Origin: Tetradesmus obliquus
Lineage: Eukaryota; Chlorophyta; Chlorophyceae; Sphaeropleales; Scenedesmaceae
Direction of reading: 5' to 3'
DNA: 64,000 nt
NCBI GenBank assembly: GCA_030272155.1
Contig: CP126192.1
Span: forward strand, 4,870,501-4,934,500
Shown: positions 2,265-39,802 of the stretch, piece by piece
Layout of the letters: each line of letters starts with the position of its first letter
How positions within the stretch are numbered: position 1 is the first letter of the stretch
The notes under the pieces: generated by a model
Told to the model about the DNA's origin: nothing
Seen by the model: the letters and a program-made list of their open reading frames with translations, nothing else
The model's database searches: none
Position numbers and translations under genes: made by a program

Positions 2265-4698
2265 CTACATCACCAATGCAGATGAGCGTGCGACAGCGCG
2301 CTGCAGTGCCAGCCCGTTGACCATGAACAGCAGCGGCTCCCCACCCACCTCCAGCAGGCTCAGGTGGGGCAGCGGGGCATCAGACCCGCGCGACACCTGC
2401 AAGAAGTGAGGCGGCCGGCAGCAGCAGCAGCAGCAGCAGTGCGGGGGCTGACCCGGCCACTACTGAAGGAAGCCTCACACAGCTGGCGAATGTAGTGCAC
2501 ACAGCAGCAGGGCTACTCAGCCAGCAGCACACAAGCGCGCTGCGCGCAACGGCTTATGTTCGCTTCTCAGCTGCAATGCAGCTACATTCTACCGCTGCTC
2601 ACCTTCCTGCCGTTCACAGCCAGCGGCGCCCTGCCGGTGTTGCGGATGCTCCACACGCCGTCCAGCCCCAAGCTCAGCTGCGCCTGCAGCCGCGACACAC
2701 TGCGCACACCACCACCACCTGCTGCTGCCGCACCCAGTGCAGCTGCTGCTGCACTGCCAGCTCCTGCTGCTGCTGCGGGTGCTGGTGCTTTTGCAAGGTC
2801 CACATCCACGTCTCCTTTGCTGTCGCTGGATCGGCCCAGGCTGACTGCGCTGCGGCGGATCACCCAGCGGCCGCCAGCACCACACAGGCAGGCCAGGCCG
2901 CCTGCAGCAGCAGCAGCAGCGGCAGTAGGCAGCAGCAGTACGCAATGGAGGGGTGATACAGTGCAGGCGCAGGCGTTACCTACAACAACAGCAACACACA
3001 GGAGCTGCTGCATACATGCGCAATCAGCTCTGCTTTGGGAATGCGCATTGCGGAGGTATCAAGGCGGCGAAGCAGCAGGAGGTGCCAGGCGTACACAGCA
3101 ATGCACCGGCTCCTTGTTATACGCCGCACCTTGCGCATCCATGTACTGCGTTGTGGCTGCTGACGCAAGCTGCTCCAGCCCAGCTGCTGCTTCTGCCACG
3201 CCCTTGAAGCGCTCATGCCACGCCTGCAGCTGCTGCTTGCTGGCAGCACCCTTGTCAGCGCCCGGCGGCAGCTGCAGCAGCGCTGCTTCTACTTCTGCTG
3301 GCGACGGCAGCGCTAAGGGGTCGTCTCTGCTGCCGTAGCCGCAGCGTTCATCGCCGTACTGCTGCTGCTGTAATGCTGCTGCTGCAGCCTCGTCGGAAGT
3401 GCCTGCACCAAGACAGGCAAGCAGCAATTAGCGCATGTTTACCTGTTTGGGGGTAAAACGGCAGCAGCAGGTTGCTGCAACATGCCAGCATGCATCCACT
3501 CGGCAAATTGCATAAGGCACTGTGCGCAATCACCTGGTTGACGAGACGATTTTAATCAGGCCAAAGGGATGCACAACTCAGTTGATGGGGCTGACCCAGC
3601 AGAGATATGTGAAATTAAATCAGGCATGTGAACCTACCTGCAGTGTTCCTCTCCTGCTGTTGTTGCTGCTGGTTGGCCTGCAACAGGAAGGCGCAGTGCA
3701 GGGGTCAGTCTGTGCCTGATGATGTGCTGCGGCTCTGATGCAACGCTACCAGCTGGCTTGCCTGCTGCTGCATTAGTTACATGTGCGACCTGACCTTGCA
3801 GTTCCTGCAATGCAATGTTGCTGTGCCGGCTGACCCCATGCTGGCATGCTGCCGCACGCACCACCGTACGAACCAACACAGCTGGAGAAGCTCTTCAACA
3901 CCAGGTGTTCAATGTTACATTCCAGACGCACCTGTCTGTGCTCTGCAACAAACACCACATCACCAGAGCCAGCTGCTGGCCCCCGCACAGGCAGCAGCGA
4001 CTGCAGCAGCTGCCTGAGGCTGCCTTCCGCGGCTGCTGCAGCCGCTGCATCGCTGCCGGCCTGTTCTTGTGCTGCTGCTGCTGCTGCTGCTGTTGCTGCT
4101 GCAGCTGCATTACTTTGTGCGCTGCTGTGCCTGCCTGCCTCGCAGTAAGCCTGGCGCTTTGCTCGCATCTCCTCCAACAGAGCCCAGTACTCAACCTGCA
4201 GAGGCAGTGAGCCGCATCACAGCTGATGGACCTGCTGAAACCACGCCAACCATGTGTAACAATGATGGGACCATGGTGGTCCACGCGTATCTGGGCGCCA
4301 CCAGATGATGGTATGGGCCATGATTGGACGCTCAGTGGCTGCCGCGACGAGCAGTGATGAAAAGGCAAGGTACTGCAGCTGACTCTGGTGCCTTCATGAC
4401 GACACTGCCTGCGACAATGTGCAGCTGCTTGCTGGATATGCAACCGTGGATGAGACTAGCTCGACCGTACCTTGTACACTGAGAGCAGCTGCTGTAGAGC
4501 AGGCAGCAGCCTGCTGGCCTCTATGTGGTCTGCAACGGCTGGCACAGGCACGGGGAGCTGCTGCTGCTGCTGTTGATGCTGCTGCTGCTCAGCAGGCTCC
4601 TGTTCAGCAGCCTTCGCACGTTTTTGATCGCTCTGATCGTCCACGGCAGCAGTGATTTCGTCTCGTGGCCGCTTTGAATCCTGAACTAAAGTAGCCAT
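2265..4698 (-). CDS. MCRS1: Microspherule protein 1-like FHA domain protein
   Basis: Six exons join in phase (4698-4471, 4195-3932, 3677-3638, 3402-3130, 2901-2603, 2396-2265) to give 411 residues. The N-terminus carries a basic, nuclear-localisation-like stretch (DSKRPRDE, QKRAK) and poly-Gln/poly-Ala. The FHA domain fills about residues 269-402: a strand with RWVIRRSAVSLGR, an IDVDL-type turn (DVDVDLAK), VSRLQAQLSL, then WSIRNTGRAPLAVNGRKV, and a last strand LLEVGGEPLLFMVN. This arrangement follows the MCRS1 FHA domain, whose proteins bind phospho-threonine and sit in the INO80 and NSL chromatin complexes. The loop before VSRL is enlarged by an Ala/Gly-rich insert of about 30 residues. The usual MCRS1 N-terminal region is not evident. 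The ATG at 4698 opens a long in-frame exon. FHA assignment is firm; the orthology is likely. Confidence 0.7.
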
Positions 4699-5552
4699 GC
4701 GAGCTTAATGGCTTGTTGCCCAGACAGAGCACACAGCTGCTTGTTTTGTAACCCACACCAATATACCGACATGTAATATTGCACGAATCAGCAGGCGAAA
4801 TTGATATCTGAGAAGGTCGTTGTAGGAGCAGCTCGACATGCACAAGTGCACTTGCTGGACAAGCAAGTTTCCGGACAGAAACGTTCTACGCATAAATAGT
4901 GCTACCAGCAGTGTCGGAGGCGTTGAAGGTCAAAGGGTGACCAGGTGGCATTGCCAGCACCCTTAGACCAACAGGGTGCAGGGCTCACAGCTGTAACACG
5001 ATGATGCCAAACAAGTTCCCAGCAGTGCTGCATAGTCTCCAGCACTCGGAGACACCACAAAACGTTTCCTGCAAAGACTTTGCCATACAGCGGTACTGCT
5101 CCCTCCTATTACGAGCCTGACAACAACATGACCACCTCCACAGCACAGTGCCTGCAGATGCCTGCAGTGCACAAGGCACCCCAGAGGTCCCCTTGAATAT
5201 ATGGTGCTAAGCCAGAACCGCAGCCTTGCATAACTGACCACACAAAAACTGTAAACTCTCACTTCATGATTGGCAACCACCGCCCGACACAGCTGCACAC
5301 ATGCTCAGCCAGGTGAACTTACGACATCATGTCATGATGGCACACCAATGGTATGTCACTGCAAGTGCCAAACCTCTAGTGCACTTCCGCTAAAGCAAAA
5401 GCAACTGCACATGCCGCTGAACGGGCCTCTTGCAGCTGCTACAAGCTGGATTGCTGCGCCGCCATACACAGCAGCGCGAGCACGTCGCTTTGGCAACCGC
5501 CACCACGCTGCGCAGCAGCCCCTGCCTGCCTGTCGCTGGCTTCAAACTCCTC
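4699..5552. other. Spacer between two minus-strand genes
   Basis: This stretch holds the 5' region of the FHA gene and the 3' region of the acidic-tail gene that stops at 5553. No open frame here has coding character, and no RNA gene was recognised. Confidence 0.4.
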
Positions 5553-5783: not shown

Positions 5784-6919
5784 GGTGTAAGATGCGTGTG
5801 GGCGCTGAGCGACACAACGGGCGAGACACACCGCAAAGTGCATGCATTCATTGGTGCATCTGCTGGCAACCAGCCGCCTGTCGCTACAGCGGCTCTTCAT
5901 TGGTGCATCTGCTGGCAACCAGCCGCCTGTCGCTACAGCGGCTCTTCATTGGTGCATCTGCTGGCAACCAGCCGCCTGTCGCTACAGCGGCTCTTCATTG
6001 GTGCATCTGCTGGCAACCAGCCGCCTGTCGCTACAGCGGCTCTTCACCACCCCAGGCACTCCTCGCGCTTCACCCTTACTCCTCACCCTCACCCCAAACT
6101 ACCCAACTTCCTCCCACGGCCTCCCCACCTGTTCATGAGGTGGCAGTTGTACTCGTGCAGCTGCCACAGCTCCGTCACAGTGTAGTCCTTGCCTGCAGGG
6201 GCGCAGCAAGTTGCAAGAGGGAGAGAGATTGTGAAGAGGCGATGACGCCAACACCGCGTGATGCCGCTGCTGTGGAGAGGTGCTGCAGGCTCAGCATAGG
6301 GTGCTGGGAGTGCTTATGTGGTGGGTTTGAACTCAGCTGAGCAAGCAGCATTGGCAGCTGGAAGCACACTGAGCAGCATGCTGCCTGCAGTTTTGTGCTG
6401 GGTGCAGTGCTGGTGACATGACCTCCATGAAGACACTGCTGTTGATGTTATGTAACCACACAAGCAGTTTTGCATGTCTGTTTGCTGTGGCGCAGCAATC
6501 GTTGCATGTTTGCATGCCTGTTCTGTTTTCACCGCAGAGTATGATGCCGCAAGCTGAAACCTGCTGCCTGTACAACTGCAAATGAGTGTGTATGGCTGAT
6601 GCTGCGCTGTGCGCTCACCATCTGTGCGTGCCAGCAGCACTTCCCCCAGCCCATTCTGCTGCACATCCGGGGGAGCAAAGCCGCTCCTGGGATCCATGAG
6701 CAGAAACACTGCTGGCTGCTCGAACGTCGGCCTGGTTGCTGCTGTTGTGGGTGCCAGTTGCTTCATTGCTAGGGGGACCCCCAGTAGTGCTGGCACTTGG
6801 CATTTGCGCCAACCGCTGCTGCTGTTGGTGAGCTCCTGCACCTGTTCTGCTGTCAGATCCACGGCCTCTGCTGTTACTCCGTTTAGTTTGACGGCACGCT
6901 GTGGGGCTGCACTGGCCAT
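5553..6919 (-). CDS. Small protein of unknown family with an acidic C-terminal tail
   Basis: Three exons (6919-6619, 6192-6129, 5733-5553) splice in phase to 181 residues, with the stop TAG at 5553. The first two thirds look globular: a segment with FLLMDPRSGFAPPDVQQNGL and another with DYTVTELWQLHEYNCHLMNR, then RWGDWLEDGMD at the last exon junction. The final 30 residues are almost all Asp and Glu, as in histone- or RNA-binding chaperone tails, but that role is only a guess. The family is not recognised. The last intron is unusual in holding four copies of a 49-bp tandem repeat, and a (CTG)14 run on the sense strand ends five bases before the acceptor. The gene sits between the FHA and MT-A70 genes on the same strand. 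Confidence 0.6.
5741..5782. repeat. (CAG)14 triplet run beside a 3' splice site
   Basis: Fourteen perfect CAG units on the plus strand, so CTG on the sense strand of the acidic-tail gene. They lie in the last intron immediately upstream of its acceptor at 5734, where a polypyrimidine tract would normally be. Confidence 0.9.
5849..6046. repeat. Four tandem copies of a 49-bp unit
   Basis: Units start at 5849, 5898, 5947 and 5996 and are essentially identical; the array ends near 6046. The period is 49, not a multiple of three, so the three plus-strand frames each read through it and create spurious open frames. It lies wholly inside the second intron of the 5553-6919 gene. Confidence 0.95.
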
Positions 6920-7282
6920 CGCGCTTGTTCACGACTGTCGAAGGCTACTGCTCCGTAAGGACGGTCAGCAGATGACGTACAGCCACAGCACCAACGACGG
7001 GTTCGTGAATGTGTGTACAGGTAATATTCGTACAGCATAGGAGGTCAGCGATCGAATTGTAAGGCCCTTGTCACCAGGCAACTTACCACCTGGGGCGGTG
7101 CAGCAGAGTTGCTTTGCTTTCAAGGGGAGCAACAGACAGCTCGCTGAAGCAAAGCAGATCGGACATTCCAAAACACCTGACCACTCACCGTAAGCTGGCT
7201 GCAGGTGCAGCCGTCTGCTGCTCACAACAGCATTGGCGGTACCAGTAGTGCTGCCGGTGCAGTGTCACCACAGTGTACATCA
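6920..7282. other. Spacer between acidic-tail gene start and MT-A70 gene stop
   Basis: A 363-bp gap that must contain the promoter of the downstream minus-strand gene and the 3' UTR of the upstream one. I see no clear TATA box and no coding frame. Confidence 0.4.
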
Positions 7283-7541
7283 TCACTGCTGCTGCTGTTG
7301 CTCCTGCTGCTGCTCCACGATGTGTGTCCAGCCTGCCCTGCCTGCCTCTGCTGCTGCCCACAGCTCCAGGAACAGGCCCTTGCCGGTTGGCAGCATCGTC
7401 TCCATGGTGCTGAACACCTGCGCAGGCACGTCCCACTCACGCCCTGCAGCAATGGTAAATAGGCAAAGTGACAGAAAATGCCCCATGGGCAGCACGGCAC
7501 ACCATTGAGCAGCAGCAGGAAGAAGAAGAAGCATCAGTAAT

Positions 7542-7586
<45 letters not shown>

Positions 7587-8623
7587 CAGGCAGGCAGGCA
7601 GCAGGCGTCACACTCGCCCACCTGCAACGGCCCTCACGCAGTCGAAGATTACATCAGGGTTGCGCTGGTGGCGCAGCTCAATGTCGCGCCCCTCACCTGG
7701 CAGCAGCAGCAGCAGCAGGGAAAGCAGCGCCATCCACGGCAGCAGCAGCAACAGTGGGGCCAGCAGCAGGAGCAGCAGTGGTGGCGGCCCACATGGTGTT
7801 CATTGCCGTGCGCCAAGAGCACCACATAGATACACCGGCACAGACATGGCACAGGGTGTCCTGCTTTGCAAGCTGCACTGTACTGATTCCTAAACTAAGC
7901 AGGGTAGCACACAGCAAGTGCTGCTCAGGGTGGCGCACCTTCTCTCCTGAAGATGTACAGCGTGATGTGTGAGCGCTGCAGGCAGGGGTAGGGCAGGCGC
8001 AGAATGGCGTGGTTGGGCTGCAGCAGCACCCAGCTCAGGTTCTCCACGTAGCTGAAGCCCCAGCTGGACAGCAGCCGCACCACCGCTGTGGTTACGAGCA
8101 TGTTGAGGCCATGAGAATGACGAGGCAGGGGCAGGGACGAGCACAGAAGGCAGCAGGGGCAGCAGAAGCATCAGGGAGCAGCAGTGAGAAGCAGGGTTGG
8201 GGCGAGCCAAGGCCGGCGGGCGTGGCAGGTGCTGCGTGTACTCAGCCTGACACACAACGCGTGCAGACAGGGAAAGTGTTGACAACAACTTGCACATGTG
8301 CGGGGTACGGCGCTGTCAGCTGTGTCCCCGCTATGCAAGCCCCTGCGTCTACCACACTATGGAGGCAGCGGATGGGTGTGCTGCTGCAAACCCCTGAATT
8401 ATGCAATGGCCGCCGCAGGCTGCTGCTGCTGCTGCCATTCATTGTACGTCCCCCACAGCCACCAGTTAACCGCCACACCTGCCTGGTGAACATCACATTA
8501 CCAATAAAGACACAGCAGTAACCCCACCTGCCAGGTGCTCCTTGTTGGCCCAGATCATGACAAAGCCGCGGGGGCACAGCTGAGGCACAGGCAGCGCCGC
8601 CAGCCGCTGCACCACAGCCGGCA

Positions 8624-8658
<35 letters not shown>

Positions 8659-8759
8659 TGAGCGTCGCCAGGCATGTCCGTTCCGCTGCACTGCTCCCAG
8701 CTGGGCACTCCCCTGCCTGTCGCTGCTGCTGCTGTTGTCTGTCCAGCACAAGCCCCCTG

Positions 8760-8826
<67 letters not shown>

Positions 8827-10001
8827 GGCAACAACAACAAGCTTTGCTGCTGCTGCTGCTGCTGCTGCTGCGTGCCGGCCACCTCCCAGCCTGTGTTGAT
8901 GAGCAGCGCCTGGTAGGCGGGCACCCGCAGGCTGCTGAACGCAAAGCGCTCCAGGCGGTGCGTGACGTGCACCTCACACGCATCAGGCGGCAGCGGCTGG
9001 CCTGCAGCAGCAGCGCAGGAGGCAGCAGTGCAAGCAGCAGCAGCGCAGGAGGCAGCAGTGCAAGCAGCAGCAACGCACAGCGGAGAGGAGGCTGTCAATG
9101 GTTGCCATGATGCAGCAGCACAAGGGATTGACAATCTGCATGCTGCAGCGGCACGTGCACAACACCAGCCACAGTCATGAAAATAAAACCCGCATGATAC
9201 GAAGAGCGACCACGGCCATTCGTGCCCTGGTGTCATCAAACGCATCTCAGACGCTGGCACATTGGCTGTCCGGTCCTGCAGTAGCAGTAGCCTCACCAGG
9301 TGCCAGGCTGCTGCTGCTGGCTGGGTCGCAGTTGCGCGAGGCAGGCAGCGCGTGCCGCTGCTGCAGTAAGCCCCGCGGCGCTGCTGCTGTTATTGATTGT
9401 GCAGCTGCTGCCTCCGCCCCAGCCACTGCTGCTGCTGCGCCAGCTGCTGGTGCGCTGCCGCTGCCGCCGCCACCTGCAGCAGCAGCTGCACCTGCCATGC
9501 GCTGCCGGTACGGCTGGATGGCTCTGCCCCAAGACAGCGGCAGCGGCGGCGGCGGCAGCCGCACCTGATGGATGGCCGCTGGATCTGCCACACGCACACG
9601 GCGCCGGATGAATGCGCTGCTGTCCCTGTTGTACTGTGTGACGACTGTGGTGGTGCGCTGCGCGCGCTGCAGCGAGCGGCCTTGTCGCTTGCTGGGGTCG
9701 CCTCTGCTGCTGCTGGCAGCGGCGGCTGCGGCTCTGCTGACAGAGCTGCTGCCCTTGAGCCTGCAAGTGTGCCAAGTGTGAGGCGCCTTAGGATGTTGGT
9801 TACAAGGATGTTTGGATGATAAGATGCATTATGATACATAGCTGCACATGGCAGCACTGCTGGGTCGGACTATGCATGACCAGCACTGCTGGGCACTTCC
9901 AGCTGCACAGCGGCTGTGCTGGTGCACTAGTGTGAATGATTTTACGGTGTTACTCCAGCAGCAGGCTTTTTCTGGGCTTGCAAGCCAAGTTCCATCTACC
10001 T

Positions 10002-10035
<34 letters not shown>

Positions 10036-10144
10036 GAACACTGCCAGGCTAGGCTAGGGGCTCACCGCGGCCGCTTTGCTGCGCCCCAGTCCTCATCAGA
10101 CCAGAAGCCTCGCAGCTCAGCCATCATGTCATCATCCGAGCCTG

Positions 10145-10181
<37 letters not shown>

Positions 10182-10372
10182 GAATGATGCCAGGCAACGG
10201 GCACAGCTTGCCAATTGCAAAAAAACATGCCTGGCAGGTGTGGGCTGCACGCATTGTACTCTGTTGCACACGGGGCACTACACTGCACTTGTTCACCCCA
10301 GCATTGCACGAGTATTGCAGTCAACACAACCCCAGCCAACTTTGGGCTGGCTGTTGACGTTGCAGCTTCAGC

Positions 10373-10410
<38 letters not shown>

Positions 10411-10616
10411 CGGCTACATCTCCTGCTGCATCTGCTAGTCATTGGGCACCTGAGTTGAAGCCCATGCTGCCAATGTCAGACGTGTATCCCGCCCTGTCCT
10501 GGGGCCTTGCACCAGCCATCAGCGCCTCATTGTTGCTGAGGATCGACTTCACGTTGAACATGCTGGTGGCTTTGAACACAGCATGCAGCTGCTCCTGATC
10601 AAGCGTGCCTTCCTCC

Positions 10617-10657
<41 letters not shown>

Positions 10658-10897
10658 ATCTGGTGCTGCTGCTGCTGCTGCTGCTGCTGCCTCTGCTGCT
10701 GTACTGCTGCCTGGCTCCTCGTCTGCTGCAACGCTGCCAGATCGCTTGCCAGCAGCAGCCTTGATTCGCTCCATCTCTTCGAACTTCCGCATGATCATTT
10801 CGGGCGTTTCCTCGTCCTCCACGTAGCCCACATAGTGAACAGCATCAGGAAGTGTGTTTTTCCGCAGCACTGAGCGGCGCTTCGGCCTTTGCGACAT
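7283..10897 (-). CDS. MT-A70-family adenine methyltransferase homologue with degenerate DPPW motif
   Basis: Seven exons in phase (10897-10450, 10141-10066, 9760-9297, 9001-8528, 8085-7939, 7696-7622, 7443-7283) give 614 residues. MT-A70 proteins methylate adenine N6 in RNA or DNA, often as pairs of one active and one inactive subunit. Domain evidence: strand LRVPAYQALLINTGW (about residues 354-368), then LCPRGFVMIWANKEHL, SWGFSYVENLSWV, RSHITLYIFRR, the strongly conserved DIELRHQRNPDVIFDCVR, and a C-terminal segment GKGLFLELWA with RAGW. The catalytic DPPW is replaced by NTGW, so this is probably a non-catalytic partner subunit, like METTL14 or the ciliate MTA9-type proteins. A poly-Gln block of roughly 50 residues lies inside the domain just after NTGW. 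The N-terminal 330 residues are charged and low in complexity and end in poly-Ala/Gly. Confidence 0.75.
7543..7601. repeat. (GCA)14 run followed by a GGCA tetranucleotide run
   Basis: A 42-bp GCA run (7543-7584) passes directly into several GGCA units. Both lie in the last intron of the MT-A70 homologue (7444-7621). Confidence 0.85.
8764..8825. repeat. Coding triplet repeat (about 20 GCT units), poly-Gln in the MT-A70 homologue
   Basis: The longest pure triplet run in the window. On the minus strand it reads CAG in frame and encodes poly-Gln inside the methyltransferase-like domain. A second poly-Gln block lies just upstream of it in the protein (about 8850-8870), and a poly-Ser run downstream (8623-8655). 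Confidence 0.9.
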
Positions 10898-11680
10898 CGA
10901 GTAGATAGATTAACGAGTTGATCGTTTCTTTGTAACTGGATATCTGACTTGTGTGCAACAATGACCACAAGCCTGATGGTCCTGCAAGACTTCGGACTCG
11001 TGGTGCTGAATGTCATGCACCCGTGTGTCTCCGTCAGATCTTTATGATAGTTTCAATGACACCTTTCAATACACGGTTGTCCTTTACAACCAGCACAGCA
11101 TATAAAGCAAAGACTCAGAGAGTCCGGTTTGTTTGACAGACACCCAGCCCTGAACCCTGACCATGAACCTGTCACAGAAACACAAGCTGTTGGCGGCATC
11201 ATCGATGCATTTACATACTATGGCATGGTACTCATGGTGAGATGTTTGAACCTGAAGGCTTGGTGCGCTCATGGGCTCATGATTGATCACTGCATGTAAA
11301 CTGCAGCTTGTATCAAAATGTTGGTGACGTCTTTTGCTGATTTCGCACTTATCAAACGCCAAATTTGATGAAAACAATGCGACTAGCGCGATCGCTGCAA
11401 ACGGATTAATCGCGCAGCCAGCGGAAGTGTAAACCCGAAAATTGAGCGGCCACCGTGATGTGACATCAACGGAACGCTCCACGTGGTGTGCACACCGGCA
11501 CTTTTTGGACGGCATCATGTCGCTCCGTGACTACCTAGTATCTAACGTCCATTTCATGCGTTTCATCTGCTATATAAGTTGCTTGTCGAGGCAGTTTATT
11601 GTCAGTACACATCCCGTTCAGCAGCTGCAGCTGCTGCAGGCAGTGTTCAGGAGACGACCGCATCAAGTAGCGGCCGCAAA
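10898..11680. promoter_or_regulatory. Divergent promoter between the MT-A70 and secreted-protein genes
   Basis: 783 bp separate two start codons on opposite strands. The stretch is less GC-rich than the flanking genes and has no credible open frame. It contains a TATA box for the plus-strand gene. Confidence 0.45.
11571..11578 (+). promoter_or_regulatory. TATA box of the secreted-protein gene
   Basis: TATATAAG lies 103 bp before the ATG at 11681, which leaves room for a 5' UTR of about 70 to 80 bases. Confidence 0.55.
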
Positions 11681-14443: not shown

Positions 14444-14526
14444 AACAGCAAGTCAGCAGCATGTGGGCATTGACCTGCACGGTAGGCTAGAGCCTGCACC
14501 AGGTCGCTGCAGTTGTGAAGTTGTTT

Positions 14527-14591
14527 GGCCCTGGCTGGGTTTGAACCAGCGACTACCGCAAGCGGGCGTTTTGCCAAGTAAACTACGGGGC
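14527..14591 (-). other. tRNA-like remnant or tRNA-derived element
   Basis: Read on the minus strand, it has a perfect B box (GGTTCAAACCC) in a 5-bp T stem (GCTGG/CCAGC), a possible A box (TAGTTTACTTGG), and a 4-bp D stem (GTTT/AAAC). The anticodon stem does not pair properly and the acceptor stem has mismatches, so it is unlikely to be a working tRNA gene. A decayed tRNA or the head of a tRNA-derived SINE fits better. Confidence 0.35.
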
Positions 14592-14707
14592 GTTAGCTCA
14601 GCTGCATGCACAGCAAGGGATGTTGCCACCACCTTGCTGCTGATGCATGCAGCTGGGCACTTTTATTTATTTTTTTGTGGTTTTTTTTTTGTTTATGTGC
14701 ATCTGTT

Positions 14708-27400: not shown

Positions 27401-30400
27401 GCGGCATGTGCCGGCAAACCTGATCCCAGCCTCAGCAGTCAATCCCTTAGCAGCCAGATCAGGGAGAATCCAGCCCCCATGGCCACTTCCCATCAACCTA
27501 CGCGCTGCCTGGCAGCCTGGCCAGCCCGCCCTGAACTTTCTGCTGACATGTAGCTGATGTGCACGCACTAACATGAGCGCGAGCTCAAACTGGCGCCCTG
27601 CTATCCCGGACCCTATAACCAAGTACTATCAATGCATTGGTGGCCACTGTGCGCACACTCACAAGCAGCATTGGCACAGATAGCCCCGGAGGACACCAAC
27701 CCAACTGTCAACTGACTATCTGTGTACCAGTATACTATCGCAGACACGCTGGTGCATACAACTCACATGAGCATGGGCACGAACAGGCCTGAGGAGATGG
27801 CGCTGCCCGCTGCCACTGCCGCTCCCAGGAAGTACCATGCCAGCATGACCATCAGCGACTGGTAGCTGAAGCGGCGGTGCGCGCCACGGGACACCAGGTG
27901 CTTGATGGTCTCGTCACCTGGGCAAGCGCATGGGGCAGAATAGCAGTGCAGGTTGTAACAAGTGCTTTGTGTAACAGCTGTCAAGCAACAGCAGGACAAA
28001 GGTGGTGCTAATTCAGCACTGAGCATGCAACTAGTCTGGATCCTGATCCCTATTCTATGTAGCCATCAGTACCCAACCGTGCGAAACTAAACGCCTCCAC
28101 CCACCTGTGTTCAGCATGAGCGTGGCCAGCTCATTGTAAAACACCACAGCCGATGCATTCGTGGGTGAGTCTGGCGTGATGGTGCCGGTGGATGGTATCC
28201 AGGTGCCGTTGTCAGCCATGACCGGCCCTGTGCTGCACGTGTACAGCGGCAGCTGCAGCGGCGGCGTGTCTGTCGGCGGCCCTGTGCCGTTGAGGGCTGC
28301 TGTCACATTTTGTATGCCGCAGTACACCTGTGGGATGGTAGGACACGCAGCCAGCAGCAGGTAACAGTGGAGCACGTATTGTGTAACAACACCAGCAGCA
28401 GGGTAGTTGACGCGGTCTTCTGAAATGCAACTGTTTAGCCAGCAGCAAGACAGCTGTCTGTCGGTGATGTTTACTGCCAAGGAGCAGTCGGAAGCTCGTC
28501 GCACCTGGTTCTGATACGTCACGCAGCGCGTGGGCGTGCAAGGAAACATCCTGGGCAGCAGCATGGTGCCCGTCACGTACACCACCACCAGCACGCAGGG
28601 CTCGATGCAGCGCCGCCACTTGTAGCGCGACAGCGTGGCGTCCCTGAACCTCGCGATCTTGAGGTTTAAAAGTGTAAAGCCTATGCCCAGCACGCCACAC
28701 AGCAGGCCCACCACTGCTGCTGGCACGATGGCCAGGATGTGGGCACTGATCTCCACGCCTGCCTCAAACACCACATCCTGCAATAACAGACACAGCAGCA
28801 AGACAGCGCGCAGTATGTTGGTGACACGTTGTCAGCCATAGGCACACGGTGCCCGACTGCAGACAGCACAGCACAGCAGGCACGCAGGTTCAATTGAACG
28901 TGTGTGTGCAAACACATGCGTCACAGATCAACATACAAGAAGAGTCCAGTTTTCTGCCTAGTCCTGGCACCTGCTGCCTTGTGCAATATCTTTGTAATAA
29001 CGCATCGCCTGCTTGCAGTAAACGCAGCAGCTGCGTCACCGCACCTGGTTGAACCAGCCGAAGCTGCCGCTGTGGAAGAGCGCCTTGCCTGCGCTGCGGC
29101 TGAGGTTCAGCGTCAGCGTGGCACACATGCACGCAAAGAATATCTGCGGCAGCAGCAGCAGCAGATGGAGCAGCGGTTAGCGCAGCCTGCACGCTCACAT
29201 ACCTATAAATAAGCTTGGTTGCTCAATTGCTACCACAACCCCCTTTAACCTATACCCATCACATTGTGCACCACACTGACAGACGAAAGTATGCGCATAC
29301 ATGTCATGTTATGCAGCCCTTGCAGTCACAACACAACCCACCTGCCACCCTAAGCTGTGCTGCCAGAACGATGCCACCTCCTCAAATGCAAACAGCAGCC
29401 CTCCGATAGGCGCATTGAAGGCAGTGGCCACTCCCACTGCCACTCCAGCCGTAACAAAGTCCCGCTTGTCCTTGGGGTTCCTAAACCGCCGGAAGATCTT
29501 GGTGCTGAACCCTAGGGTTGTGGAATGGCCCTGGCTGAGTGCTGCACCCAGAGCTGCGCCGATGTGGATCATGGGGCCTTCCGGGCCAACGGGTAAGCCG
29601 CTGGCGACTGCTAATGCACAGCTGGCAAATTTGACTACAACTGTGAAGATGTTAAACACCTGCAAGCATGACATCAAAGTAATGTGCAATCCCAGTGACG
29701 CATGTGTATGCATGACCAAACAGGTGAACATGCAGCAACCAGCATGGCATGCTGAACTCGCAGCCAGCAAAGTCAGCTCACAGGCCGCGGAGGTGGACAG
29801 CAGCAGCGAGAAGAGCAGCCACTTACGGCACCAACGTGTAGCTGCATGTAGGCAGCCACACGGCAGAGTTGCACGTGCACTCTCCATGCACTCATGCAGC
29901 TTCTGCCACATATGCGCACGCGACCACGTCCTCATGCTTACTTGCTGCACCAACAAGATGTAGTGAGATTTCAAGGAAACGCCATCCACCCCTTCTCGCT
30001 CACCTTGGGCAGCAGTATGCCGTTGAGGTAGGCCATCACCTCCGGCACGCCGCTGCTGACGGCTGCAGGCGCCCAGCCCACCACCAGCGCGCTGCTGCCG
30101 CCCACCAGCGCCAAACTCACAGTCGTGTTGAACAGCCACGCCACAAACAGGTTGGTGTGCAGCAGCAGCCAGCGCGTGATGCCATACTTGAACTCTGCCA
30201 GCGCGTTGATCACCTGCATAGCAATATATACAACATGCATGTGGCTGGTGAATGCCCCGCACCCATTGCAACTGCAGCATCTGCTTTGTTCCGGCAGCTG
30301 CTGCACTGTTGTACGGCCCATGTCCTGCAAGCTGTTGCCGGTGGCCCCACTGCCCCACGCTGCTGTCCTTAAGCCAGCTGTGATGTGCATCCTGGCAGCA

Positions 30401-30577
30401 CTGCCAGCCGGCATCCCTGCTGCTGGTGCTGCTGCCTCCGCTGCTGCCTCCGCTGCTGCTGCCGCTGCTGCTGCCGCTGCTGCTGCTGCTCACCACGTAG
30501 AGGCTGTATGCCACCAGGCCTGTGGTCACTCCGATGCTGCCCATCATCAGCCACCTGTCCCAGGCGCGCCGGTGCGG

Positions 30578-30628
<51 letters not shown>

Positions 30629-31798
30629 CACGCGCAACAAGCCGCGTCATGTCAGTTTCTATGCTGCCTCAAAATGATTGCAGAGGAGCACCGGGTGGGC
30701 CACTTGCAGGCTGTTGTAATGCTGCCTGCAGCAATGCACGCCACATCATGTGCACATTGGGCGCGTGCTGCTGTGCCTTCTGCTGTGCCTGCTGCTGCAC
30801 CTGCTGCTGCACCTGCTGCTGTGCCTGCTGTTGCACCTGCTGCTGTGCCTGCTGCTCACCTGCCGTGCGAGCCATCTGCGGTACACTGCGCTGTTGGGCG
30901 CAAAGTAGTCTATGCTCTCGTACAGGTTCAGCTTGCGCTTCTCTTCTGTGGAAAAGCTGTGGTTGACGCGGCTGCTTTCAGCGTCTGCGCCAGGCTGCAG
31001 GCAGCAGCAGGCAGTGCAGGTGCGTGGAACAGGCAAAGGCAAGAAGGCGTCAGGTGCTGGTCTCTGTTGCTCAGCGGTTACTGATTGCAGGTGCAGGAAC
31101 AGCTTGTTGTGGTGCAGGCTGGTATGATGATCTGCTGCAGCTGCTGCTGGGGTGGCACATACATATGTGCTTTGGGTGTGTGCAGCTAGCTGCTTGTACT
31201 TGTGCTTCAAGTGTCCTGCTGCTGCATTGTGTGACCACCATGGAATGTCAAAGCATGGATCCTGCTGCACTTGTGGTCTCTGACATGTGGCACGGCATGT
31301 CCTGCAAGCCTGCTTGCACGCCAGTGTGCAACATAGAAAGCCGCTGCAGCTGCTGCGAGCTGCAGCTGCTGTTGCTGCTGCACGTACCCGCCAGATGTCT
31401 GTGAGCAGCCCGAAGAAGCTGCGCTCCTCATGCTGCTGACTGTGCACGCCACCAGGAAACAGCAATGTCTCCTCATCCGAGTCATTGCCTGAATTCTCCG
31501 AGTGCTCAAACTCAATGTAATCCGTGAAGGCTACGGCATGCACAGCAAGCAGCAGCAGTAGGGGCAGCAGCAGCAGGGCCAGCAACAGGACACAGCAGCG
31601 GCAGCAGCAGGGAAGCAAGGTGGTTGGGGCCTTACAGACGTGCTAAGCAGGCCAGCAACAGTACAGCAGGCAGGAAACATGAATGGTTGGACATATGTAA
31701 GCAGTAGTACTGGCTGAAGGGGCACCAAGGCATGCAAGTTGGAGTTGCACTGTTGAGGTGTATGTGCAGTGGAACCCACCTGGCTGGCTGGCACTCAT
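24418..31798 (-). CDS. CLC-family chloride/proton antiporter with two C-terminal CBS domains
   Basis: Seventeen exons, all in phase, give 945 residues: 31798-31780, 31530-31388, 30994-30860, 30577-30494, 30213-30004, 29659-29342, 29143-29045, 28777-28505, 28327-28105, 27917-27767, 27258-27182, 26870-26796, 26478-26294, 25928-25836, 25633-25352, 25131-24955, 24711-24418. CLC signatures: ESIDYFAPNSAVYRR before the first helix, SSGVPE (180-185), GLPVGPEGP with the gating Glu near 224, FNAPIGGLLFAFEEVASFW with the proton Glu pair near 290, and SGLFVPML near 545. Both glutamates kept implies exchange rather than channel activity. The loop FPCTPTRC...YNELATLMLNT matches the CLC-d/CLC-6/7 branch of endomembrane exchangers, but is enlarged and carries N-glycosylation sites. 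CBS1 spans exons 14-15, split by a linker; CBS2 (LRHLVVVDEHNRVRGIVTRK) is in the last exon. The Ser in SSGVPE, not Pro, favours chloride over nitrate. Confidence 0.88.
30581..30628. repeat. (GCA)16 triplet run beside a 3' splice site
   Basis: Sixteen GCA units, CTG/TGC on the sense strand, occupy the intron end immediately before exon 4 of the CLC gene (acceptor at 30578). They stand where the polypyrimidine tract should be. Confidence 0.9.
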
Positions 31799-36306: not shown

Positions 36307-39300
36307 CCTTGCAGCTCCGCACCAACGTGCGCATGCTGGCGCTTGCCTCAGCCGCTTACATGACCGCCGTCATCACCTGCAGCAGCAGCTACCTCTGGCA
36401 CCAGCCGCCGCCGCAGCTGCAGCTGCAGCACACCTGGCTGGACTGGCACTCTCTACAGCAGGCTGTAACAGCAGCCAATCTGCGCACCGGGCAGGTCTGG
36501 CTACAGCAGCACCCGGTCAACACCCGAGCCAACTTGGCTCAGCTACAGCAATCTCTCGCATCATTCCAAGCTCTAATTGATGCAGCGCAGCGTGGGATGG
36601 CTGACTCGCAGTGCATCCTGCAGCAGCTGCCGCCGTTTGAGGATGCGACTGAGTGCTGGCTGCTGCACGGGCAGCAGCCGGCTGCTGCCACAAGCCAGCG
36701 GCTAAGCATCCATGACTTGCGCAGACGCATCAGTGAGGCTAGCTTGTCACCCTTTCAGCTGATGGTGCATGCAGATGAGCCGCAGCAGCTGGTGTGGGTG
36801 ATGGATTTGGTGCTGCTGCGCCTGGTCGATGCAGCATACGGTGAGATGCAGGAGCAGGAGCAAGAGCAGGCAGCTGGCGCTGGTAATTACCAGCAGCAGC
36901 AGCAGCAGGCGGGCGTGATGCAGCGGCAGCATAGCGGCGGGCAGCAGCTGCAGCTGGCGCGGGCTGCCTCCTACCCGCCAGGCCTGCAGCAGCGGCTGCC
37001 GCAGCCGCCGCTGCCGTCACCACGTGTGCTGTCACCTGGCAAAGGGCATCAGCAGCAGCAGCAGCAGCCGAAAAGCGGTCGTGGTGAAGCCATCCCAGCT
37101 GAAGCTCCGCTCACTCCTTCGCCGGTTGGCGAAGCTGCTGGCGGTGCCCCACCAGCAGATGCAGCGGCAGCAGCAGCAGCAGGTAGCGACCTTGGTCCTT
37201 CACCCAACCATGTGCCTCGCTCAGTCCTAGCCAGTGCATTCCCTGCACAAGCGGCTGCGCAGTATGCGTGGCCAGGCATGCGTGTGCGCAGCAGGGTGGT
37301 GCTCAGGCGCTCCTTTGTGGGCTGTGAGGAGGCTCTGTACATGACTGTTGATGAGGATGAGTCTGAAGCGCTGCTAGAATCTGAGTCTGAAGAAGAGAGC
37401 CTGGACTCTGCAGCATCAGATGCAGAGCGGCAGCAGCAGCAGCAGCAGCAGGGTGAGGATGCAGCAGTAGCAGTTGAGCAGCTGGAGCCAGCAGCGGACG
37501 AGGAGCAGCAGCAGCAGCAGGAGGTGGCTGCTCCTGCTGTGACTGAGCAGGAGCAGCAGCCGGAACAGCAGCAGCAGCAGCAGCAGCGCAAGGGCAAAGG
37601 CGGCCGGCCACGTAAGCGCAAGGGTGAGGCAGCTGGGGTGCTGGAGTCATGCCTGGCGGAGCTGGACCCTGCCACAGCAGCAGCAGCAAAGGAGGCCATG
37701 TACGGCATCAGGAGGAGCACCAGAGGCGAGGCAGCAGCACCAGCCGCAACACCAGCAGCAGCAGTAAGTGAGGCGCAAGCTGCAGGGCATGCAGCAGCAG
37801 CAGAGGTGCAGCCTAAGCCCCGCAAGCGGCGAGCATCGCGGCAGTCCACCCCTGACGGCGCTGCGGAAGTGGCAGCAGCAGCAGCAGCAGCAGCAGCAGG
37901 CGGCAGGCAGCAGCGCAGCCGCAGCTCTACCCCTGCTGTAGAGCTGGCAGCAGCAGCAGCTGCTGCTGGCGATGCTATGCAGGAGCAGATGCAGGCGCTT
38001 GCAGCAGATGAAGATATGGATGATGACACCAGGGCAGCAATCCAGGCAGCCATGCTTGGCCTGCGGGGCACCAAACAGCAGCACAAGGAGCAGCAGCAGC
38101 AGCAGGCGAGCGCAGCGGGCTCCAGTCAGCGCGCAGGATCTGCCAAGCGCGCCGCTGCGGCTGCAGCAGTGCCTGGCAGCAGCAAGGCAGCAGCAGCAGC
38201 AGCCGGGCGCCCCGCCAAGCGTGGCCGCAAGGCGGCAGCAGCAGCAGCAGCAGCCGGAGCAGGCTGCGGCAGGGCGATGGACCTGCAGCAGATGCGGCAA
38301 GCTGCTGCTGCCACAAAGCTCCCAGGCTTCTGCAGAGGGCTCACTCAAGCCCTAAAGGCCCGCAGGCGGCTCAACAATGCAGCTGATGCTGCTGCTGGCC
38401 TGCTGCAGGAGAATGGCTACCTGATGGCAGTCCCATATGGCTTACCTGCGTGCTTGCTGTCTCTAGATGGTGGTGCAGCAGCAGGGCCAGCTGCTAAGGG
38501 CCAGGCTGGAGGGTCATGGGGAGGTGTGTCAGGCTATAATCAGGCTGGCGGCAGCAGCAGCAGCAGCGCGGCAGCCGGCGGCAGCAGAGGCCAGCGCAGC
38601 CAGCTGCGAGCGATGGTCAAAGGGGAGGCAGGAGCTAGCCTGGGGTTGAGTGAGGCGGCAAAGTGGAAGAACCTGGTAGCGCGCAGCAAGCGAGTGGTCT
38701 TTGAGCGCAGCGGGGTTCACGGCTGGGGCCTGTTTGCTGGCGAGGAGATAGGCGCTGATGAGTTTGTTATTCAGTATGTGGGCGAGCTGATCCGGCCGGT
38801 GCTGAGTGACACGCGGGAGCGCATGTATGAGGCTGCGGGGCAGGACTCCTCGTACCTGTTCAGGTGAGGCTGGGAGTGGTTGTTGAAGGTGGGAGGGGGT
38901 TAGCACAGCTGCTTGCTGCTGGTCGGCTGCGTGATGAGGCTTTATGTTGCTTGATGAGGATTGCTGAAGTATCCGATTGCTGGAATGCACATATGCACTG
39001 GGCAAGTGATCCTCAACAGCTGCCAGTAAATGCACGGGCACTCCTCTCCATGTGCGTGTGTCCACAATAGCTCCGTGTGCCGCCTGCTGTATGTCCTGCA
39101 GGATTGACGGCGACTGGGTGGCTGATGCCACGGTGCGTGGCGGGCGCGCGCGCTTCATCAACCACAGCTGCGACCCCAACTGCTACACCAAGATCTTCAG
39201 CGTGGACGGCAGCCGCAAGATTGGCATCTACGCCAAGAAGGCCATTGCGCCGGGCCAGGAGCTGGCGTATGACTACAAGGTGGGTGGGGGCGTTGTGACA

Positions 39301-39802
39301 TTATCAATTAGGCTGCCTGGAGGTTGCTCATGGCTTTGCGGCACTGCGTGGGCTCCTTGCATGGTTGGATGCTTAGTGCTGATTGTTGTCGTGCCTTTTG
39401 GTGAAATATGGCTGCTGCGCAGCAGCTGCCGCAGCTTCGAGCATGTACATGCGTTGGGTTGCTGGGCGGGTGATGTGCGTAACATGTTTAGCAGGAGCAG
39501 CTGCTTGTTCGGCTCGTCGTATGGGGTGGTGGTGGTGCGCATCGGGCAGCCACAGAATTCTGCACGCCAATGCCATGTGCTTGTACAGCATGCTGGTACA
39601 GCTGGCTGCATCAAGCTGCATGCCTTCATCCAATCTTTCCCAAGAACGCCAAGATTTGCTGCTGAATCCTCCTCATCCTGCTGCTGCTGCTGGCGTGCTG
39701 CATCTGTGTGTGTGCTTGCTGCTGCAGTTTGACTTTGAGGAGGACGCACGCCGGGTGCCGTGCGCGTGCGGGGCCAAGAACTGCCGCGGCTTCATGAACT
39801 GA
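32360..39802 (+). CDS. SET1: SET1-type histone H3K4 methyltransferase with RS-rich N-terminal half
   Basis: Six exons (32360-35343, 35543-35661, 35864-36096, 36315-38863, 39102-39279, 39728-39802) give 2045 residues. Exon 1 is a huge low-complexity region: Pro/Ala/Gln-rich, then a classic Arg/Ser domain (about residues 165-330) as in nuclear-speckle proteins, then Gln/Ser/Asp-rich sequence with [12 protein letters not shown]. Exons 2-3 encode a Tudor-like segment ([26 protein letters not shown]). Exon 4 ends with the start of the SET domain ([20 protein letters not shown], about 1904 on). Exon 5 has [11 protein letters not shown] (catalytic NHSCDPN near 1982-1988) and YDYK; exon 6 has the post-SET zinc cluster [10 protein letters not shown]. 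The pattern fits SET1/COMPASS enzymes that methylate histone H3 Lys4; no PHD fingers are seen. If the GTGAGC donor at 35344 is not used, exon 1 stops at TGA 35345 as a separate 995-residue RS protein. Confidence 0.75.

Follow-up and report, generated by a model that had tools for sequence, protein, structure and literature searches.

The window (the whole 64,000-nucleotide stretch of Tetradesmus obliquus DNA analyzed here) carries on its minus strand, from 10897 to 7283, a gene whose DNA-level model joins seven spliced exons into 614 amino acids plus a stop (Table 1). All six introns are GT-AG, the reading phase is intact across 6/6 junctions, and the 614 codons contain no internal stop; in the spliced model, NPDVIFD begins at residue 549. 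Of the junctions, the one joining exon 2 to exon 3 is the least secure and may be wrong, because a TGA stands directly at the exon 2 donor. A split into two genes (exons 1-2 versus exons 3-7) was considered. TGTAA is the green-algal poly(A) signal, and the split is favored both by the position of one (9804) of three minus-strand copies in 6600-11200, which falls between exons 2 and 3, and by the lack of any minus-strand copy between the stop and 6600 (6600-7283). However, the frame of exon 3 offers no Met from the stop near 9828 to about 9498, and the single-gene model was retained for this reason and because the phases fit.

Table 1. Exons and domain features of the gene, with three other features of the window (window coordinates).
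Feature	Position	Strand	Content
Exon 1	10450..10897	-	Residues 1-149; begins with basic residues; contains YVGYVEDEETPEMIMRKFEEMERIK and poly-Ala tracts; searches gave nothing significant
Exon 2	10066..10141	-	Residues 150-174; TGA directly at donor, boundary less certain
Exon 3	9297..9760	-	Residues 175-329; part of the N-terminal region
Exon 4	8528..9001	-	Residues 330-487; MT-A70 domain starts here; NTGW, low-complexity insert, LPVPQLCPRGFVMIWANKE
NTGW in the DPPW slot	8886..8897	-	Residues 365-368; codons AAC ACA GGC TGG (8897-8886)
Q/S-rich insert	8625..8870	-	82 residues, shortly after NTGW, in exon 4
Exon 5	7939..8085	-	Residues 488-536; WGFSYVENLSWV (position of MTA9 Tyr164); LRLPYPCLQRSHITLYIFRREG (interface-loop region and Arg231 position)
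Exon 6	7622..7696	-	Residues 537-561; IELRHQRNPDVIFD, equivalent of PteMTA9 LELRHQRTPDVLFD (Arg246 position)
Exon 7	7283..7443	-	Residues 562-614 and stop; last domain strands; lacks the four C-terminal SAM-contact residues
tRNA	14526-14592	-	Rfam, 40 bits (gathering 29); unreported by ARAGORN
Voltage-gated chloride channel exons	28058-30646	-	PF00654, E 8.6e-27 and 1.1e-7
SET domain	39010-39729	+	PF00856, E 9e-16; about 28 kb off, probably an exon of a histone methyltransferase

The initial annotation had described an MT-A70 homolog in which DPPW has become NTGW at residues 365-368, and on the level of the DNA its gene coordinates, residue numbers, and letters were all borne out. The MT-A70 domain is more than a chance resemblance: Pfam MT-A70 (PF05063) scored 25.9 bits against the unedited 614-aa model (E 1.1e-5; cutoff 23.9) and 29.4 bits against its 160-aa C-terminal part (E 9e-7), and among solved structures MTA9 was matched at an E value of 9e-17. 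Rereading the DNA near 8890-8905 for an intact DPPW returned codons for NTGW, and no minus-strand frame over about 8500-9010 contains PPW (0/3), so a frame error would not yield DPPW; such an error was ruled out on this ground and because the MTA9 counterparts are likewise eroded. Across the aligned rows, the slot reads N--W in 3/3 AMT6/7 rows with letters there (NTGW, NALW, and NIKW) and DPPW in 7/8 non-AMT6/7 rows, the exception being human METTL14 (EPPL). When scored against the SAM-contact residues listed in PMC9852454, whose numbering agrees with N150 of chain 7yi8_A, the window protein keeps none of the six that it covers (0/6; D182 and V183 lie outside the covered row).

The N-terminal ~330 residues, which had been said to match no known partner, returned nothing significant from Pfam (exon 1 alone and the whole model), from solved structures, or from the rest of the genome: with low-complexity parts removed, the structure search gave a chance match (E 2), and the genome search gave, besides three matches to the region's own exons, one chance match at an E value of 1.3. 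The Q/S-rich insert predicted in exon 4 is absent from the reference fragments, and among the first 60 donor-acceptor pairs examined in that exon there are at least 26 in-frame GT-AG alternatives, all from donor 8882, that would shorten or eliminate it. A homeodomain family search of the genome, directed toward p1/p2, gave one weak match (E 0.24), and this failure to find p1 and p2 was counted against the AMT6/7 assignment. It would be a long shot that the N-terminal region and the insert take over part of the DNA-contact or assembly work that p1/p2 perform in ciliates, or tie the complex to other chromatin factors.

To place the protein within its family, a 198-aa query lacking the low-complexity insert was searched against all solved structures. 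The best matches were MTA9/AMT7 chains (E 9e-17 to 3.5e-15), of which 9u92_B, 7yi8_A, and 9o6k_A are those we take to be from Tetrahymena thermophila, followed by 8xyl_B (“Methyltransferase MT, putative”; presumably Tetrahymena AMT6) at an E value of 4.8e-11. Solved MTA1 chains matched at 3.3e-6 to 1.6e-5 and the METTL4-type chain 7cv6 at 0.012, with METTL3 chains at 0.2-1.1 and METTL14 chains at 0.84-1.8. Identity over covered columns was 34% (57/167) with the Tetrahymena MTA9 row, 33% (44/134) with Paramecium MTA9, 30% (47/155) with 8xyl_B, and 17-24% with the other eight rows.

A tree of 12 rows was then built from the window protein, three MTA9-type rows, and AMT1, METTL3, METTL14, and METTL4 rows from the same genome and from references. 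The window protein grouped with the three MTA9-type rows (all fragments taken from printed alignments, with no algal or fungal AMT6/7 among them) at 100/100, and this support was unchanged after the columns of the DPPW motif and the C-terminal SAM residues had been blanked; shared loss at these columns is therefore not the cause of the grouping. Membership in AMT1 was rejected (p-AU 2.5e-4 with columns blanked, 2.1e-5 unblanked), as was membership in METTL3 (2.8e-5 blanked, 8.1e-7 unblanked), and membership in METTL4 was rejected weakly (0.037 blanked, 0.0073 unblanked). The AMT1 pair and the METTL3 pair were each unrecovered as one side of a branch, so the deeper branching order is unreadable from a tree of this size. 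By sequence comparison, the window protein is most likely of the AMT6/7 (MTA9) type and not of the METTL14 type.

Residues at the subunit interface were compared using the 14 contact residues named for PteMTA9 in PMC9174199, all of which land on the expected letters of PteMTA9 chain 7f4s_D (Paramecium). With gaps scored as misses, 7/14 are identical in the window protein, the same count as in the Tetrahymena MTA9 row (7/14) and 8xyl_B (7/14), and 0-5/14 are identical in the eight non-MTA9 rows; METTL3 of the same genome reaches 5/14, so the margin is modest and was counted against the AMT6/7 assignment. The window protein retains the equivalents of Tyr164, Glu166, Leu168, Arg231, Arg246, and Pro248 and has Met, Asn, and Met at the positions of Phe142, Thr247, and Leu275. 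In the MTA9 interface loop (218-222) it has 1/5 identical (Leu220 only), which was likewise counted against the assignment, and Tetrahymena MTA9 has 0/5. Arg231 is found in 4/4 AMT6/7 rows versus 0/7 other rows with a letter, and Arg246 in 4/4 versus 0/5. The segment to which the initial annotation had drawn attention, DIELRHQRNPDVIFD, corresponds to the MTA9 block with Arg246, Thr247, and Pro248; these three residues meet the MTA1 interface loop, and Y164A of MTA9 and interface-loop mutants disrupt the MTA1-MTA9 pair, according to PMC9174199. On the opposite side of the interface, the AMT1 of the same genome keeps 5/5 MTA1-side residues examined (Tyr258, Tyr294, Leu295, Gln296, and His297).

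Partner genes were sought in the whole genome (104.7 Mb, 17 contigs). A PF05063 search (E ≤ 0.001) gave seven matches and four loci besides the window gene, which was itself absent from the matches at this threshold, its exons singly being presumably too weak for such a search. The four loci encode AMT1/MTA1 (L009, contig C6; E 1.1e-56 to solved MTA1 versus 4e-25 to METTL3), METTL3 (L008; E 2.1e-95 to a solved structure), METTL14 (L010; E 1.2e-52 to solved METTL14), and METTL4 (L011; E 1.6e-37 to a solved structure). A paralog with intact DPPW, which the initial annotation had proposed to look for, is thus present as the AMT1 gene, and the three further MT-A70 genes carry DPPW as well (4/4 translations). 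Searching the genome with the window protein (E ≤ 1) returned five matches, all of them its own exons, leaving it as the sole gene of its type returned. For the C-terminal ZZ zinc finger, a mark of AMT2/5 according to PMC12695648, the 614-aa model returned nothing at E ≤ 1; ZZ matches in the genome at E ≤ 0.01 numbered at least four, none listed at MT-A70 loci. Pattern matches in viral contigs (49, checked by tblastn) and in a collection of prokaryote genomes (336) included none that could be confirmed as relatives.

It is also worth recording two features of the other MT-A70 genes. The METTL14 gene (C7:2953275-2953421) has DPPW at the position of EPPL in the solved METTL14 chain, so catalytic and partner subunits cannot be told apart by the letters of the motif alone. 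Tandem exon-like repeats occur in the AMT1 (2403-3369), METTL3 (3820-4844), and METTL14 (3362-4876) loci, with two to three copies per family that are 60-98% identical, some still reading as exon and others not; these could be tandem exon duplications or mutually exclusive exons.

The combination of MTA9-like contacts, loss of SAM residues, and interface residues kept in AMT1 points to a silent partner of AMT1 in DNA 6mA, and we consider its product very probably to be the AMT6/7 (MTA9) subunit of an AMT1 DNA adenine-N6 methyltransferase complex, which would give structural and DNA-holding support to the AMT1 of contig C6 at ApT. The noncatalytic partner in an N6-methyladenine complex that was initially suggested is therefore favored, and it can be named as AMT6/7 (MTA9). 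Having retained the MT-A70 fold and lost DPPW and the SAM-contact residues, the protein would pair with the DPPW-bearing product of the contig C6 gene and would stabilize it both structurally and in its grip on DNA, and AMT1 of the pair would methylate ApT sites. Heterodimer formation, the structural role, the DNA substrate, and the ApT site are what we infer from comparison with the solved ciliate complex, in which MTA1 is catalytic and MTA9, with an eroded NALW, is without SAM (PMC9852454). The same text reports no obvious impact of MTA9 N150A, and the role of MTA9 is described as structural, stabilizing substrate binding, in PMC9174199.

Three other readings were weighed against the AMT6/7 assignment. 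METTL14 is likewise an inactive MT-A70 partner, and its weak similarity to the window protein (E 0.84-1.8) would allow a role in RNA m6A methylation as a partner of the METTL14 type; yet the genome has a METTL14 gene of its own, the RHQR block is missing in both METTL14 rows, and a tree holding the window row with METTL14 was rejected (p-AU 5.7e-6 with columns blanked, 8.3e-5 unblanked), which leaves this reading highly improbable. We regard it as quite unlikely that the protein represents a distinct lineage of inactive MT-A70 proteins that has an N-terminal domain of its own and serves another function. The unmatched ~330 N-terminal residues, the 82-residue insert after the motif, and an end branch of 0.87-0.89 changes per column speak for such a lineage, but the own-lineage possibility raised in the initial annotation was not borne out by the tree, in which the protein joins the MTA9-type rows at 100/100; moreover, it shares their contact residues and is the sole gene of its type from the genome search (E ≤ 1), beside an AMT1 gene.

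A decaying AMT6/7 pseudogene could account for the many low-complexity tracts, for a Pfam score just 2 bits above the cutoff, and for the missing TGTAA from the stop to 6600. Against decay stand six GT-AG introns with phases kept, 614 codons free of internal stops, and contact residues retained at the rate of the ciliate members though the SAM residues are lost, and we give this explanation very little credence.

Under the AMT6/7 (MTA9) assignment, the AMT1 and AMT6/7 pair lies beside METTL3, METTL14, and METTL4 in one genome, and 6mA at ApT would therefore be expected in the DNA of this species, which is a direct prediction. PMC12695648 reports robust 6mA in Chlamydomonas, describes AMT6/7 as a noncatalytic partner that co-occurs with AMT1, and recognizes six ancient families, whose origin it dates to before the last eukaryotic common ancestor. 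The N--W common to the window protein and the two MTA9-type rows covering the slot fits a loss of catalysis that preceded the divergence of these lineages, which accords with families of that age. The same paper calls AMT6/7 in ciliates dispensable in its main text and the partners required in a figure legend; this conflict was counted against our best explanation. A literature search, in which NTGW itself was not queried as a word, found nothing on the window protein or the NTGW form, and the protein most likely adds a further member to a family already known.

Compared with known systems, the window protein is most like MTA9/AMT7 (the Tetrahymena chains and PteMTA9 7f4s_D), with which it shares the MT-A70 fold, the ‘ELRHQR’ block, the loss of SAM residues, the equivalents of Tyr164, Glu166, Arg231, and Arg246, 33-35% identity over covered columns, and N--W in place of DPPW (as in the 7yi8_A type; the slot lies outside the 7f4s_D fragment). 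Unlike MTA9/AMT7, it has an insert after NTGW and a long N-terminal region without a match, whereas MTA9 has a stretch of ~120 residues between two matched segments for which the window protein has no counterpart. The putative methyltransferase 8xyl_B is similar in its RHQR block and its clade, with 30% identity over covered columns; its motif is NIKW, and of the two proteins the window protein alone has the insert and the unmatched N-terminal region. METTL14 works in a similar way, as an inactive MT-A70 partner of an active subunit, but it belongs to another family by tree and contact residues and is represented in this genome by a separate gene.
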